A program made the position numbers and the translations under genes. A stretch of 64,000 nt of DNA from Verrucosispora sp. WMMD573 (GTDB lineage Bacteria; Actinomycetota; Actinomycetes; Mycobacteriales; Micromonosporaceae), in the NCBI RefSeq assembly GCF_027497175.1, contig NZ_CP114901.1, forward strand, positions 434,001 to 498,000, read 5' to 3'. Within the stretch, counting starts at the first letter, position 1. Each line of letters begins with the position of its first letter. The notes under the pieces are model-generated. The model was not told where the DNA came from and searched no databases. It worked only from the letters and a program-made list of their open reading frames with translations. Of this stretch, positions 1 through 5,406 are shown in pieces.

Positions 1-540
1 CGCCCGCTCGATCTCGTCGGCACCGGTATCGCCGCCACGGAGATCGGCAGACCGCTCGACGCCGCAGCCCGGGCCGCGGTACTGCGGGCCGCCCCCGGCA
101 CCGGCACCGGCCCGCTGCGTCGGCCCCGCCCCGACCTGGTCGTGCAACTCGGCTGTGACCGGCCGGCAGCGCTGCTGGCCGCCGGTCATGCCCAACGGCG
201 GCAGCCGCACCTGCTGGTGGACATCCGGGAGGCAATGCCGACGGTCGGCCCGCTGGTCCGCCCGCCGATCGGCCCCTGCCTGCGCTGTCTCGACCTGCAC
301 CGGGCCGACCGGGACCCCGGCTGGCCGACGCTCGCGGCCCAGCTCGCCAGCGCCCCGCCCACCCCGGCCTGTGCCGTGAGTCTGCTGCTGGCGGCGACCG
401 GATACGCCGTCGGTGAGGCGTTGAGCCACCTCGACGGCGGCACCCCCGAGACCCTCGGCGGATCGGTCGAGGTGTTGGCCTCCGGCAACCTCCGGCGACG
501 CTACTGGCCGCCCCACCCGCGCTGCCGATGCGGCGGCTGA
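1..540 (+). CDS. E1-like (ThiF/MoeB/HesA-type) protein, 3' end only
   Basis: The frame is open from base 1, so this is the last 179 residues of a gene that starts outside the window. Two cysteine pairs are visible, GPCLRC in the middle and CRC in the last residues after HP. Paired cysteines of this kind hold the structural zinc in ThiF/MoeB-type E1-like proteins and in the related leader-binding proteins of azole RiPP pathways. The nucleotide-binding half lies upstream and cannot be checked. Its place next to an ABC1 kinase and whiB7 fits the conserved neighbourhood around mycobacterial Rv3196-Rv3197, so a housekeeping protein is more likely than a RiPP enzyme. Family assignment is inference. 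Confidence 0.55.
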   Translation, partial: RPLDLVGTGIAATEIGRPLDAAARAAVLRAAPGTGTGPLRRPRPDLVVQLGCDRPAALLAAGHAQRRQPHLLVDIREAMPTVGPLVRPPIGPCLRCLDLHRADRDPGWPTLAAQLASAPPTPACAVSLLLAATGYAVGEALSHLDGGTPETLGGSVEVLASGNLRRRYWPPHPRCRCGG

Positions 541-595
541 CCGATGGGCCGGCAGCGGGTGCGCCTGCACGGCAGCAGCGGGCCGGCCGAGTCGG

Positions 596-602
596 TAACA
601 AT
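596..602 (+). promoter_or_regulatory. -10 box of a probable leaderless promoter (ABC1 kinase gene)
   Basis: TAACAAT ends 6 bases before the GTG at 609 and there is no purine-rich ribosome binding site, so transcription probably begins at or next to the start codon. This fits the leaderless pattern seen at other genes in the window. Confidence 0.45.
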
Positions 603-608
603 GACCGA

Positions 609-1937
609 GTGACCGACATCCCGCGCCGGGCCGTGTCCCGGACCGCCAAGCTCGCCGCTCTGCCGCTCGGCTTCGCCGGACGGACCGTCCTCGGCATGGG
701 AAAGCGCGTCACCGGGCTCGCCTCCGATGTGATCTCCGCAGAGATCCAGCAACGCACGGCAGAGCAGTTGTTCAGCGTCCTCGGGCAGCTCAAGGGCGGG
801 GCGATGAAGTTCGGTCAGGCGCTGTCGGTGTTCGAGGCCGCCCTCCCGGAGGAGATCGCGGCGCCCTACCGGCAGGCGCTGACGAAACTCCAGGAGGCCG
901 CGCCGCCGCTGCCCGCCGCCAGCGTGCACAAGGTGCTGGCCGAGCAGCTGGGGCCAGCCTGGCGGGACCGGTTCGTGAGTTTCGACGACTCCCCGGCCGC
1001 CGCGGCAAGCATCGGGCAGGTGCACCGGGCCATCTGGCGGCTACCGGACGGTTCCGGCCGCGACGTCGCCGTGAAAATCCAGTATCCCGGTGCCGGTGAC
1101 GCCCTGCTCGCCGACCTGAAGCAGCTCTCCCGGCTCGGCGGCATGTTCCGGGCCATCCAGCCGGGGCTCGACATCAAGCCGCTCCTGGCCGAGCTGCGGG
1201 AGAGGATCACCGAGGAGCTGGACTACGAGCTGGAGGCGGAGTCGCAGCGGGCCTTCGCCGCCGGGTACGCCGACGACCCGGAAATCTACGTGCCGGAGGT
1301 CTGCTTCGCCTCGTCCCGCGTCCTGGTGACCGAGTGGATCGAGGGCACCCCGCTGGCCGACATCATCCGCTCCGGCAGCGAGGAGCAGCGCGACGCGGCG
1401 GGCCGCCTGATGGCCACCCTCCATCTCTCCGCGCCGGCTCGGGCCGGGCTGTTGCATGCCGACCCGCATCCGGGAAACTTCCGGCTGCTGCCCGACGGCC
1501 GGCTCGGCGTGATCGACTTCGGGGCGGTGGCCCGGATGCCGGAGGGTACGCCGGAACCGATCGGTCGAATCGCCGGGCTGGCCCTGCGCGGCGACGCCGA
1601 CGGGGTGGAGGCCGGGCTGCGGGCCGAGGGCTTCGTCAGTGGCACGGAGCCGATCGACGCGCACGCCCTGTTGGAGTTCCTGCGTCCGATGCTGGAGCCG
1701 ATCGCCGCCGACGAGTTCCGGTTCACCCGGGCCTGGCTGCGGGCCGAAGCGGCCCGGCTGGCGAGCCCCCGCTCCCCGGCGTACCAGTTCAGCCGACAGC
1801 TCAACCTGCCGCCGTCCTACCTGCTCATCCACCGGGTGACGCTCGGGTCGATCGGGGTGCTCTGCCAGCTGGAGGCCAAGGCCCCCTACCGGGGCATCCT
1901 GGAGCGCTGGCTACCGGGATTCGCCGCGGTCGGCTGA
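609..1937 (+). CDS. ABC1/UbiB-family atypical kinase (AarF-like)
   Basis: 442 residues, the usual size for actinobacterial ABC1 kinases. ABC1 hallmarks are in order: KFGQ (KxGQ motif, in place of a normal glycine loop), an alanine-rich segment ending SIGQVH, the lysine in VAVKIQYPG, the catalytic-loop sequence HADPHPGNF and the metal-binding IDFG. Family members act in quinone or lipid metabolism as ATPases/kinases; the substrate here is unknown. I start at the GTG at 609 because the frame upstream overlaps the previous gene and lacks family sequence, and a -10 box sits just ahead. It converges on the whiB7 operon across a shared hairpin, the same partner as mycobacterial Rv3197. Confidence 0.85.
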   Translation: MTDIPRRAVSRTAKLAALPLGFAGRTVLGMGKRVTGLASDVISAEIQQRTAEQLFSVLGQLKGGAMKFGQALSVFEAALPEEIAAPYRQALTKLQEAAPPLPAASVHKVLAEQLGPAWRDRFVSFDDSPAAAASIGQVHRAIWRLPDGSGRDVAVKIQYPGAGDALLADLKQLSRLGGMFRAIQPGLDIKPLLAELRERITEELDYELEAESQRAFAAGYADDPEIYVPEVCFASSRVLVTEWIEGTPLADIIRSGSEEQRDAAGRLMATLHLSAPARAGLLHADPHPGNFRLLPDGRLGVIDFGAVARMPEGTPEPIGRIAGLALRGDADGVEAGLRAEGFVSGTEPIDAHALLEFLRPMLEPIAADEFRFTRAWLRAEAARLASPRSPAYQFSRQLNLPPSYLLIHRVTLGSIGVLCQLEAKAPYRGILERWLPGFAAVG

Positions 1938-2236: not shown

Positions 2237-2602
2237 TCAGGCAGCCAGCCGGACAGCGCTGCGCGACGCGGCGAGACCATTGGCCGCCAGCCGCGCCTCG
2301 GCCTCGACCCGCAACTCGGCGTCACGGGCGAGATCCTCCTTGCGCGGGCGGCCACGGGGTCGCTTGCGCGGAACGACCGCGCCACGCTCGAAGATCTCGC
2401 CACCCCAGACGCCCCACGGCTCGGCCCGCTCGACCGCGCCGGCCAGGCACTCGACGCGCAGCGGGCAGTCCCCGCAGAGCGACTTGGCCAGTTCCAGCTC
2501 GGTGGGCGAGTCGGAGAACCACAGGTCGGGGTCGAACTTCCGGCAGGGCAGGTTCGCCTCCACCTCGACGCTCACGTCGAGTGGGGCCAACGCCAGACTC
2601 AT
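2237..2602 (-). CDS. whiB7: WhiB7/WblC-type transcriptional regulator
   Basis: 121 residues. Four cysteines at positions 20, 43, 46 and 52 (C-x22-C-x2-C-x5-C) bind the WhiB [4Fe-4S] cluster, followed by the turn GVWGG (64-68) that contacts the primary sigma factor. The RPRGRPRK stretch at 81-88 is the AT-hook that distinguishes WhiB7 from other Wbl proteins. WhiB7 activates intrinsic resistance to ribosome-targeting antibiotics with SigA, at promoters with an AT-rich element just upstream of -35. The ATG has a good site (AGAGGTGA) 7 bases ahead. Downstream of uvrD2 and beside the ABC1 kinase gene, exactly as in mycobacteria. The C-terminal 30 residues after the hook are basic/alanine-rich. 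Confidence 0.93.
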   Translation of the reverse strand: MSLALAPLDVSVEVEANLPCRKFDPDLWFSDSPTELELAKSLCGDCPLRVECLAGAVERAEPWGVWGGEIFERGAVVPRKRPRGRPRKEDLARDAELRVEAEARLAANGLAASRSAVRLAA

Positions 2603-2670: not shown

Positions 2671-2715
2671 AAAAAACTGAGGCCGCGGATCCCGGTGTGC
2701 GGGTTCCGCGGCCTC
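2671..2715 (-). terminator. Intrinsic terminator (attenuator) in the whiB7 leader
   Basis: On the minus strand a stem of 11 bp (GAGGCCGCGGA with its complement), plus a further 3 bp inside after one mismatch, is followed at once by CAGTTTTTT. A true U-tract is rare at this GC content. It lies about 70 bases upstream of the whiB7 ATG, so it would stop transcription before the gene. Confidence 0.85.
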
Positions 2716-2758
2716 GAGGTGAGCCGGTGGTCTGTGGTCAGACCGGTCTACCTCGAGG
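2712..2758 (-). promoter_or_regulatory. Candidate antiterminator hairpin of the whiB7 leader
   Basis: Two copies of the self-complementary octamer CCTCGAGG (2712-2719 and 2751-2758) can pair with each other around an inner perfect hairpin (GGTCTG/CAGACC, 2729-2744). The downstream copy includes the first bases of the terminator stem, so the two structures compete. The stop codon of the leader ORF (2738-2740) lies inside the inner hairpin. Pairing is read from sequence; regulation is inference. Confidence 0.6.
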
Positions 2759-3022
2759 TGGAACACCGCGGACGTCCATCCGCTTGTTGACGCCATCGAC
2801 GCCCTTGCCCGTGAAGCCACTGCTTCCCTGGAGCCCGTTCGTGACCGGTGCGAGGATCAGCTCGGCCTGAATCTCGGCCCGGTGCACCTGCGGAGCCCAC
2901 GGTCGCGCAGCGACGGCGGTGGCCCGGACTTCCGCCAGCGGAGCGGCGGTCGTCAAGGCAGCCGACAGCGGAGCGACGGCAACGGGCAGCGCCGTCGGAC
3001 GCTGGTAGATGTAGCTCTCCAT
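2738..3022 (-). CDS. Leader ORF (uORF) of whiB7, 94 codons
   Basis: Starts at an ATG with the best ribosome binding site in the window (AAGGAGG, 8 bases ahead) and encodes 94 residues beginning MESYIYQRPTALPV. No domain recognised; Ala/Val/Pro-rich in the first two thirds, Gly/Arg/Lys-rich at the end, no convincing signal or membrane segment. It lies between the whiB7 promoter and terminator, and its stop falls within the candidate antiterminator, the arrangement expected of a ribosome-sensing leader ORF. whiB7/wblC genes are known to be controlled by uORF-dependent attenuation; the length and sequence of this one are not something I recognise. It could also encode a functional small protein. 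Confidence 0.7.
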   Translation of the reverse strand: MESYIYQRPTALPVAVAPLSAALTTAAPLAEVRATAVAARPWAPQVHRAEIQAELILAPVTNGLQGSSGFTGKGVDGVNKRMDVRGVPPRGRPV

Positions 3023-3112
3023 CGGTGCCACCTCCTTGACGTGCACTCGTGGTCGACCCGGAAACAGACCCCGTGAGCAGCCCGAACAGGGCCCCTTCCG
3101 AGGTGTGCCCTG

Positions 3113-3151
3113 AGGCTATGCCGGCCGGTGGGGCGAGGGCAAACGAATTAA
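3113..3151 (-). promoter_or_regulatory. whiB7 promoter with WhiB7-type AT element
   Basis: Reading on the minus strand: TTAATT (3146-3151), then exactly 3 bases, then -35 TTGCCC (3137-3142), an 18-base spacer, and -10 TAGCCT (3113-3118). An AT-rich element 3 bp upstream of -35 is the known recognition feature of WhiB7-dependent promoters and implies autoregulation. Predicted start near 3105, about 80 bases before the leader ORF. Confidence 0.6.
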
Positions 3152-3160
3152 CGGTCGGAT

Positions 3161-5314
3161 TCAGAAAGTTTTCTGCGGGCAGATTTCGTCGACGGTCGCG
3201 CCACCCACCAACGCCAGCACCGCCTCCCCGTACAGGCCCAGTTTGCGCGGTCCGATCCCGGCGATCGCGACCAGCTCCTCGGCCCGGCCCGGCCGCCGCT
3301 CGGCCAGTGCCACAAGCGTCGCGTCGGTGAACACCACGTACGCGGGCACCTTCTGCGTGCCGGCCACCCGAGACCGCCACTCGCGTAGCCGCTCGTGCAA
3401 CTCGTCGTCGATGTCGGAGGGACAGGTGGCGCACCGGCCCAGCTTGCGGTCCGGCCCGGCGAGCAGGGTCGTGCCGCAGATCCGGCAGGACACGATCCGG
3501 GTGGCGGGCCGCCGCTGCGGGGTCCGCCCCGGCCGTTGCGCGTCGACCCGTTCCGTCGCGCCGGCGGGCGCGAGTTGCGGCAGGAATCGACTCGGTCGCC
3601 GGGGCCGGCCGCCCGGCGAGCGCGCCGAGGCGTACGACAGCCAGAGCCACTGGCGGGCCCGGGTGATACCGACGTAGAGCAGTCGGCGTTCCTCCTCGAC
3701 CTGTTCGGTGGTGCGCGCGTACGTGGTGGGCAGGGTGCCCTCGGCCAGGCCGACCAGGAAGACCGCGTCCCACTCCAGCCCCTTGGCGGAGTGCAGGGAG
3801 GCCAGCGTCACGCCGTCCACGGTCGGCACGTGCTGCTGGGCCGCCCGCCGGGCCAGTTCCTCGGTGAAGTCGGTCAGGGTGACCGGGCGCTCCACCGTGG
3901 CGGCCACGCCCAGCGGCAGGATCTCCGGGGTGGCCGCGTACTCCTCGGCGAGCTGCACCAGCGCGGCCAGTGCCTCCCACCGCTCGCGGGCGGCACCCCC
4001 CGCCGGCGGAGCATCGGGTGCCCATCCGACGCCGGCCAACGCCTCGACCACCGCTGCCCGCAGCGGGGTCTCACCCGGCAGCGACCGGGTCGCCGCGCGC
4101 AGCGCGACCATCGCCTGGCGAACCTCGGCGCGTTCGAAGAACCGTTCCGCCCCCTGGACCTGGTAGGGCACACCGGCCTCGGCGAGCGCCTTCTCGTACG
4201 CCTCGGACTGCGCGTTGGTGCGGAACAGCACGGCGATCTCGCGGGCCGGGGTACCGGCGCCGATCAGCGCCCGACAGCGGGCGGCGACCGCGGCGGCCTC
4301 GGCCGGCTCGTCGGTGAAGATCCGCCGCTCCGGCTCCGGGCCGGCCGGCTGCTGCCCGACCAGCTCCAGGCGCAGCCGCGCCTCGGTGCCCCGCGCCTGC
4401 GAGATGACCGCGTTGGCAAGCCCGACCACCTGCGGCGTCGACCGGTAGTCGCGGACCAGCCGGACCACGGTGGCCGCCCGGTGCCGACGCGGGAAGTCGA
4501 CCAGGTACGCCGAGGTGGCCCCGGTGAACGAGTAGATGGTCTGGGAGGCGTCGCCGACCACGGTCAGGTCGTCCCGTCCGCCGAGCCAGGCGTCCAGCAG
4601 CCGCTGCTGCAACGGGTTGACGTCCTGGTACTCGTCGACGACGAAGTGCCGGTACTGGTTGCGGACCTGCTCGGCGACGTCCGGATGCTCCTCGATCCCC
4701 CAGACCGCGGCACGCAGCACGTCCTCGAAGTCGATCACCCCACCGGTCCGCTTGAGCCTCTCATAGGCGGCGAACACCTCCGCCACCTTTGCCGGCTCGT
4801 GCGAGGTCTCGCGCAGCGCCTTGGCGGCGGCCACCACGTACTCGCCCGGCTCGACGAGGGAGGACTTGGCCCATTCGATCTCACCGGCGAGGTCACGTGC
4901 GGCCGTCCGGTCGGCGCGCAGGCCGGCTCGCGCCGCGGCGAGAGTGACCAACCTGACCTTGCTGTCCAGCAGCTCGGGCATGGCCCGGCCGTCGAGCAGC
5001 CGCGGTGCGAAGTAACGCACCTGCCGCAGCGCAGCCGCGTGGAAGGTGCGCGCCTGCACGCTGGCCACGCCGGCCACGGCGAGCCGCTGACGCAATTCCG
5101 CGGCGGCCCGGGCGGTGAAGGTGACCGCGAGCACATGCCGGGCCGAGATCTCACCGGTCAGTGCCCGGTACGCGATCCGGGACGTGACGGCCCGGGTCTT
5201 GCCGGTACCGGCACCGGCGAGTACGCAGACCGGGCCGGCCGGGGCGGTCACCGCCGCGCGTTGCTCCGGATCGAGCCCGGCAAGCACGCGTTCGGACGCG
5301 GAGTTAACCACCAC
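3161..5314 (-). CDS. uvrD2: ATP-dependent DNA helicase UvrD2
   Basis: 717 residues from the chosen start. Superfamily 1A motifs are present: Walker A GAGTGKT, the DEYQD box of motif II, VVGDASQTIYSFTGA of motif III, and the C-terminal ITRARQWLWLSYA of motif VI. The tail has the two UvrD2-specific parts: a four-cysteine zinc module (CRICGTTLL...CATC) and an HRDC domain at the very end. Mycobacterial UvrD2 is an essential 3'-5' helicase whose unwinding depends on the zinc module. I start at GTG 5314 because a -10 box (GACAAT) lies 8 bases ahead and the upstream residues are not family-like. It shares a divergent promoter region with the mycoredoxin gene. Confidence 0.92.
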   Translation of the reverse strand: MVVNSASERVLAGLDPEQRAAVTAPAGPVCVLAGAGTGKTRAVTSRIAYRALTGEISARHVLAVTFTARAAAELRQRLAVAGVASVQARTFHAAALRQVRYFAPRLLDGRAMPELLDSKVRLVTLAAARAGLRADRTAARDLAGEIEWAKSSLVEPGEYVVAAAKALRETSHEPAKVAEVFAAYERLKRTGGVIDFEDVLRAAVWGIEEHPDVAEQVRNQYRHFVVDEYQDVNPLQQRLLDAWLGGRDDLTVVGDASQTIYSFTGATSAYLVDFPRRHRAATVVRLVRDYRSTPQVVGLANAVISQARGTEARLRLELVGQQPAGPEPERRIFTDEPAEAAAVAARCRALIGAGTPAREIAVLFRTNAQSEAYEKALAEAGVPYQVQGAERFFERAEVRQAMVALRAATRSLPGETPLRAAVVEALAGVGWAPDAPPAGGAARERWEALAALVQLAEEYAATPEILPLGVAATVERPVTLTDFTEELARRAAQQHVPTVDGVTLASLHSAKGLEWDAVFLVGLAEGTLPTTYARTTEQVEEERRLLYVGITRARQWLWLSYASARSPGGRPRRPSRFLPQLAPAGATERVDAQRPGRTPQRRPATRIVSCRICGTTLLAGPDRKLGRCATCPSDIDDELHERLREWRSRVAGTQKVPAYVVFTDATLVALAERRPGRAEELVAIAGIGPRKLGLYGEAVLALVGGATVDEICPQKTF

Positions 5315-5319
5315 AGCGG

Positions 5320-5346
5320 GGAATTGTCGCAGCTTCTCCGGACGTT
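5320..5346 (+). promoter_or_regulatory. SigR/SigH-type promoter for mycoredoxin, overlapping the uvrD2 -10 box
   Basis: GGAAT (5320-5324), 19 bases, GTT (5344-5346) matches the disulfide-stress sigma factor consensus GGAAT-N18/19-GTT. Mycoredoxin genes belong to this regulon in Streptomyces. The -35 element overlaps the minus-strand -10 box of uvrD2 (GACAAT, 5323-5328). Confidence 0.6.
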
Positions 5347-5406
5347 GCAGCGGATAGCCTGTGCTTGATCGGCAAGCCACCGGGCGCGACGTTGGAGGAT
5401 CTCACC

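Follow-up and report, generated by a model that had tools for sequence, protein, structure and literature searches.

The minus strand between positions 3151 and 2671 of the window (i.e., the whole analysed stretch of 64,000 nucleotides of Verrucosispora sp. WMMD573) very probably encodes a ribosome-mediated transcription attenuator of whiB7. Read directly from the sequence, this region contains a promoter, a Shine-Dalgarno (SD) sequence, a leader open reading frame (uORF), a pair of octamers and a terminator, after which whiB7 follows. The anatomy of the leader, its conservation, the covariation of its octamer helix and its location upstream of whiB7 were observed directly, and they are presented below together with the mechanism that they suggest.

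The regulated gene (2237..2602, minus strand) encodes a 121-aa protein with a WhiB domain (Pfam PF02467; E-value 1.6e-13, 51.5 bits against a cut-off of 23.6), and its closest named match, from Micromonospora andamanensis, shows 100% identity across 121 residues. The translation carries the C-terminal AT-hook-like motif RGRPRK, which we take to be a mark of WhiB7. No NCBIfam family matched the product at E ≤ 0.001, which was not counted against its membership in WhiB7. The source genome contains six WhiB-family matches, of which one was obtained at E ≤ 1e-20 with the whiB7 query. On its upstream side whiB7 adjoins a UvrD/PcrA-like helicase gene (3161..5380, minus strand; start codon uncertain; matched by NCBIfam PcrA/UvrD models below their cut-offs), and a UvrD-like helicase gene is presumably also the neighbour of whiB7 in M. 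tuberculosis. An ABC1/UbiB-type atypical kinase gene (528-1937, plus strand; PF03109) is located nearby.

The promoter comprises an AT-rich, WhiB7-type element TTAATT (3146..3151), placed 3 bp (CGT) 5' of the -35 hexamer TTGCCC (3137..3142), which is followed after an 18-nt spacer by the -10 hexamer TAGCCT (3113..3118), all on the minus strand; transcription would start near position 3105. The first-pass annotation of this DNA had reported the element, its 3-bp distance and both hexamers, and its coordinates hold. A search for the pattern of at least four A/T, 3 bp, TTGNCN, 16-19 bp and TANNNT revealed it in 69 of the 89 relatives left after dereplication and in none of 1780 shuffled upstream sequences; the 18-nt spacer is found in the 69 matches, and the eight misses listed, out of 20, are small variants such as TAAAACCG before the -35 or an altered -35. 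A generic promoter/terminator scan, which demands a loop of 3-8 and hexamers nearer to TTGACA/TATAAT, gave 0 promoters and 0 terminators. The same arrangement of an AT-rich element and a -35 is described for WhiB7 binding sites in the available part of PMC10727445.

Downstream, the SD sequence AAGGAGGT (3030..3037, minus strand) precedes a leader ORF of 94 codons, which runs from ATG at 3022 to TGA at 2738 (2738..3022, minus strand) and, as read from the translation and the aligned relatives, ends with GVPPRGRPV-stop. Its product has no match in Pfam and none in NCBIfam. The ORF with its SD is conserved in relatives and overlaps the antiterminator, and it is presumably translated in the source organism. 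Outside the last codons, pN/pS ratios amount to 0.78-1.18 in 66 leaders; these leaders were preselected for GVPPRG, and the ratios were not enlisted in favour of a conserved leader peptide. Octamer 1, CCTCGAGG (2751..2758, minus strand), lies within codons -6 to -4 of this ORF, and the identical octamer 2 (2712..2719, minus strand) overlaps the 5' arm of the terminator. Between them, the inner hairpin GGTCTG-ACCA-CAGACC (2729..2744, minus strand; arms 2744-2739 and 2734-2729) is predicted to form across the stop codon. The intrinsic terminator hairpin (2679..2715, minus strand; 11 bp + 4 bp, predicted -32.9 kcal/mol) has the arms GAGGCCGCGGA (2715-2705) and TCCGCGGCCTC (2689-2679) and is followed, after AG, by a T6 tract (2671..2676, minus strand). 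The strong-RBS leader ORF, the self-complementary octamers around a hairpin holding the leader stop, and the 11-bp terminator stem with T6 before whiB7 had all been proposed by the first-pass annotation, and each was located and paired correctly; to these we add four extra pairs of the terminator stem past an A-A mismatch in the predicted fold, and an antiterminator that is probably longer than the octamer pair.

For the comparative analysis, 193 loci with a WhiB7 match were collected (the window's own locus is present twice, as L006 and L007), 183 of which gave a terminator and a leader ORF (L026, L028, L100, L118, L119, L121, L166, L170, L171, and L197 were left out). The anchor was present in 182 loci, which were dereplicated to 96 leaders and grouped into 49 octamer-2 classes. 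Using an alignment (A1) of 53 leaders, chosen by us from 113 non-redundant segments in a way favouring leaders with a visible octamer, RNAalifold recovered the octamer helix unaided, with changes on both sides at four of seven pairs. The swap test over the 49 octamer-2 classes is free of that choice; there, the octamers of a leader paired with their own partners at 4.40, versus 3.68 ± 0.16 after swapping between lineages, and 0 of 1000 swaps reached the own value. A score below 7 of 8 in the simple octamer test was obtained for 52 of these 96 leaders, including those of Pseudonocardia. Moreover, among 13 alignment windows, the antiterminator one reached -33.0 versus -14.0 ± 3.1 in 25 column shuffles, and this window and the preceding one stood out (z -6.2 and -3.1). 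Two upstream windows (z -14.4 and -4.1) have energies of only -0.8 and -2.4 and were taken as noise. Judging by the aligned sequences, compensating changes have preserved the octamer helix across different actinobacterial families. The conservation of the octamer pair with the terminator, the absence of which would, according to the first-pass annotation, have refuted its reading, was found by the swaps, by RNAalifold and by the covariance model described below.

The same alignments bear on the question of whether the CCTCGAGG copies act as DNA, namely as an operator for a dimeric regulator, with an ordinary, constitutive terminator behind them. Each octamer is a perfect palindrome, and most of the Micromonosporaceae leaders listed have the identical octamers, which would suit such a site; however, some relatives pair CCTCGAAG with CTTCGAGG (4 dereplicated leaders), and non-palindromic but complementary are also CCTGGAGT with ACTCCAGG and CCTCGGGG with CCCCGAGG (one leader each). 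Furthermore, in the leaders tested, octamer 2 was delimited by the point where it joins the terminator arm. As palindromy is lost while complementarity is kept, we rejected the operator as extremely improbable and retained the RNA helix of an attenuator.

The antiterminator probably extends past the octamers into the 5' side of the terminator, and its likely additional 5' strand (2760..2772, minus strand) takes one of two registers in the predicted folds. Folding with 40 nt of upstream sequence gives register 1, in which TCCGCGG (2772-2766) would pair with 2711-2705 and cover the entire 5' arm of the terminator (-45.1 kcal/mol); with 75-150 nt of context its probability falls to 0.00, and the octamer helix persists. 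These longer contexts give register 2, with GTTCC (2764-2760) paired with 2707-2703 and GCGG (2769-2766) with 2702-2699, which leaves four bases of the terminator arm (2711-2708) unpaired and which the family consensus fold resembles. The pair counts are similar for both (register 1: 72.2% of cells pair, changes on both sides at one of seven pairs; register 2: 74.3%, three of eight pairs) and favour neither of them. A 26-pair structure has 80.8% of cells paired, as compared to 77.6% in shuffled alignments and at most 45.5% with slid partners, and 48 cells changed on both sides versus 17.0 shuffled and at most 24 slid; the structure with register 2 gives 81.1% and 58 cells. Two of the five shuffle-control measures were unremarkable, i.e., the number of pairs changed on both sides (11 in the 26-pair structure, matched by 66 of 500 shuffles, or by 34 of 500 for register 2) and the number of further pair types (29, matched by 380 of 500, or by 174 of 500 for register 2).

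The predicted folds also suggest when each hairpin may form. As long as the 3' end of the transcript lies between 2710 and 2682, the octamers are predicted to pair with a probability of 0.95-1.00 without a ribosome, and in the complete free leader the predicted equilibrium gives 0.97 for the terminator stem and 0.54 for the octamer helix. As the terminator is favoured at equilibrium, read-through must depend on the antiterminator folding before it; likewise, the fold that leaves the 3' arm unpaired is 10.6 kcal/mol less stable than the terminator state (-45.1 vs. -55.7), so that the switch would have to operate kinetically. A ribosome whose A site holds the stop codon would, with an assumed 32-nt footprint, mask 2758-2727, and thereby octamer 1 and the greater part of the stop hairpin; the leader fold predicted with this footprint masked retains the terminator. 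This geometry is consistent with the first-pass proposal that a ribosome finishing the ORF covers 2751-2758 and frees the terminator.

We infer the timing of the switch, its inducers, the autoactivation, and the termination and induction in the source organism to be as follows. RNA polymerase would start near 3105, with a ribosome trailing on the 94-codon leader ORF. When translation proceeds to the stop codon, the ribosome would cover octamer 1 and the stop hairpin and leave octamer 2 free, so that the terminator 2715-2679 could form and transcription would stop at the T6 tract, leaving whiB7 off. If the ribosome were slow, stalled or absent upstream of 2758, due to a ribosome-targeting drug or an amino acid shortage, octamer 1 (probably together with the extension just upstream) would pair with octamer 2 and part of the 5' side of the terminator as these emerge; the terminator would then come too late and the polymerase would read into whiB7. 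The WhiB7 protein may subsequently also activate its own promoter via the TTAATT element. That termination in this leader is mainly Rho-dependent, with the hairpin secondary, seems highly improbable to us: Rho and translated uORFs reportedly shape premature termination in M. tuberculosis, but the leader has a strong intrinsic terminator of its own, complete with U tract, and an antiterminator that shows covariation, and stalling with Rho alone would generally be expected to lower, not raise, expression.

The C-terminal codons of the leader ORF were compared among 87 leaders, i.e., the right-frame reads, defined by containing PPRG. (The set of Micromonosporaceae-type ORFs comprises 89 sequences, being 97 minus identical ones; L023 and L058 were read in a wrong frame, and the codon-usage and promoter figures refer to all 89.) Codon -9 encodes Gly in 87 of 87 leaders, with all four codons used, codon -7 encodes Pro in 87 of 87 (CCA 66, CCG 21) and codon -8 encodes Val in 80 of 87. 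Such conservation, in leaders selected for PPRG, is what would be expected if GVPPRGRPV-stop were a nascent-chain pause parking the ribosome on octamer 1, with termination as the default; a pause of this kind would suit the timing of the switch, and other families also have Pro-Pro close to the stop. However, a large share of this conservation is accounted for by the predicted pairing of codons -9 to -7. Bases 1 and 2 of codon -9 are predicted to pair with the sequence 3' of octamer 2 (0.73-0.91, depending on context), and in register 2 codons -8 and -7 are predicted to be paired as well, with their third bases mostly free; within the octamer the codons are invariant (CCT 87, CGA 87), while adjacent third positions vary among the 87 leaders. 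The predicted pairing of the GG of codon -9 in either register fits Gly in 87 of 87 leaders with any third base and leaves less need for an arrest peptide. The motif is also absent from the Pseudonocardia, presumed Streptomyces and presumed mycobacterial leaders. Since most of the conserved codon positions coincide with predicted pairs, we consider the arrest peptide unlikely.

Some leaders of other families have features of their own. In Pseudonocardia (L105-L107, L109-L111, and L113-L116), the leader ORF has a motif of the TGVS type (TRVS in one case, TGVT in another), whose first residue lies 11-14 residues from the end of the ORF, and these leaders are without the octamer pair. Many leader ORFs of the other actinobacterial loci L132-L158 and L189-L194 end with Pro-Pro near the stop (WGPPV, WSPPV, WSPPQ), and several of these leaders have a CCTGGAG/CTCCAGG-type helix.

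The codon usage of the leader ORF was also analysed. In the window, 11 of 85 codons belong to the U-ending set, versus 4.2 expected (p 0.002), and GCT makes up five of 16 Ala codons versus 0.6 expected (0 of 5000 simulations). Against the background of 31 window ORFs, which was applied to the relatives as well, the 89 relatives have 27% vs. 4% of GCT among Ala codons, 21% vs. 2% of GTT among Val codons and 13% vs. 2% of ACT among Thr codons. GCT is kept at three aligned columns, where it accounts for 47 of the 53, 50 of the 58 and 39 of the 59 codons for Ala, and U-ending codons exceed those of the first 75 codons of whiB7 in 82 of 89 Micromonosporaceae-type leaders and 78 of 84 others, counts that are inflated by shared descent. 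No enrichment is seen in the leader ORF for Gly GGT, His CAT, Cys TGT, and Phe TTT. A-ending codons are doubled overall (4.5% in the leader, 2.3% in whiB7), though Ala, Val and Thr show no such doubling relative to the window ORFs, and T does not exceed A in the 5'UTR. Two explanations of the U-ending codons were tried and found no support. Keeping the ORF unstructured gave a mean z of 0.09 with genome-usage resampling and -0.97 with synonymous permutation (15 of 89 ORFs); a high-expression bias did not fit the comparison ORFs, with GCT 7.8%, GTT 4.9% and ACT 3.0% in 22 ORFs from a ribosomal protein/elongation factor region, a few of which may be spurious or mis-started. It is conceivable, but rather doubtful, that the leader ORF is a slow sensor in which rare U-ending, wobble-read codons delay the ribosome under mild inhibition or tRNA shortage and so promote the antiterminator; the odds of this are lowered by Gly, His, Cys and Phe, which do not follow the trend. 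If functional, the codon bias would show how the leader ORF is tuned for sensitivity.

A covariance model built from the 53 leaders was used to follow the element in other genomes. In the genome of the window, with 150 of 10111 candidates scored, it gave 94.9 bits at this site, 32.9 at the same place on the opposite strand and at most 24.1 elsewhere. Within the family, whiB7 was found in 146 of 150 genomes (E ≤ 1e-20) and the leader site in 139 of 150, with at least eight of the 150 genomes having supplied sequences to the model; in 139 of 139 cases the site and the whiB7 match share a strand, with the site lying 69-229 nt ahead (two opposite-strand rows, G138 and G033, were excluded from this count). 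Seven whiB7-bearing genomes of the family gave no site with the model. One family genome rated 100% complete (G088) has neither a whiB7 match at E ≤ 1e-20 nor a leader match. Phylum-wide, with stricter filters, the site was found in 10 of 246 genomes and is located just upstream of whiB7 in all ten, as compared by eye and with three of the ten having supplied model sequences. Very small genomes of family f40 keep a WhiB7-like gene; upstream of it, in one of them (L198, genome G458, 1.5 Mb), there is a hairpin with a T tract, and the ORF finder gave only an 8-codon ORF. Rfam 15 has 0 matches at the gathering threshold in the window, and the leader has two matches far below the cut-off (E 0.16 and 0.54).

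With this leader, the known range of the whiB7 attenuator comes to include Micromonosporaceae, which are known as producers of antibiotics directed at the ribosome. The analysis adds the cross-family covariation of an element without an Rfam match and the excess of some U-ending codons in the leader. The alignment and the model could serve as the basis of an RNA family and help to locate and compare whiB7 leaders. In the open-access papers searched we found no description of a Micromonospora whiB7 leader or of its covariation; the primary wblC paper may hold such comparisons.

The uORF-mediated attenuation of wblC in Streptomyces and whiB7 in mycobacteria was reportedly described by Lee, Lee and Roe in Mol Microbiol in 2022 (doi 10.1111/mmi.14834). 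In the available parts of PMC10727445, PMC9618640, PMC13393426, and PMC11550727, translation of the uORF leads to termination, and stalling leads to an antiterminator made from sequences common to the uORF and the terminator, which agrees with the first-pass annotation, where uORF-dependent attenuation of whiB7/wblC was taken as known. As this switch is already published, the Micromonosporaceae leader is a further case of it. The two are alike in having a leader ORF, an intrinsic terminator, an antiterminator built from ORF and terminator sequences, and an AT-rich element 3 bp from the -35 (PMC10727445, in the part available), whereas induction by ribosome stalling, published for the former, is proposed here. 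The leader RNA of mycobacterial whiB7 is treated in PMC4128351 (part of the text available). Micromonosporaceae differ in their palindromic CCTCGAGG octamers and, here, in the 94-codon ORF; two leaders of genus g113, which we take as Streptomyces, have CCCTGGAG with CTTCAGGG instead, and those of family f8, taken as mycobacterial, have no octamer pair.

An alanine-responsive whiB7 leader of mycobacteria (Poulton et al. 2024) is cited in the available parts of PMC13236596 and PMC10727445. It shares with our leader the ORF upstream of whiB7, and Ala is the commonest residue of the window's ORF (16 of 85 codons counted); it differs in that Ala is only slightly enriched over the 89 relatives (0.156 vs. 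0.142 in the 31 window ORFs). The ABCF attenuators are5sc and tiaA, according to the available part of PMC12421871, likewise have a uORF and a terminator/antiterminator switch driven by drug-stalled ribosomes, but their ORFs are very short (MLV, MVGDDDISG), their target genes are other ones and their antiterminator hairpins overlap the ribosome binding site of the ORF, unlike here. Finally, in the ilvB1NC attenuator of M. tuberculosis, as presented in the available part of PMC13236596, a ribosome at the uORF stop masks the antiterminator strand and leads to the terminator, as proposed for the leader of whiB7; ilvB1NC relies on a short run of four regulatory codons, whereas the ORF described here is long and no comparable run was seen in it.
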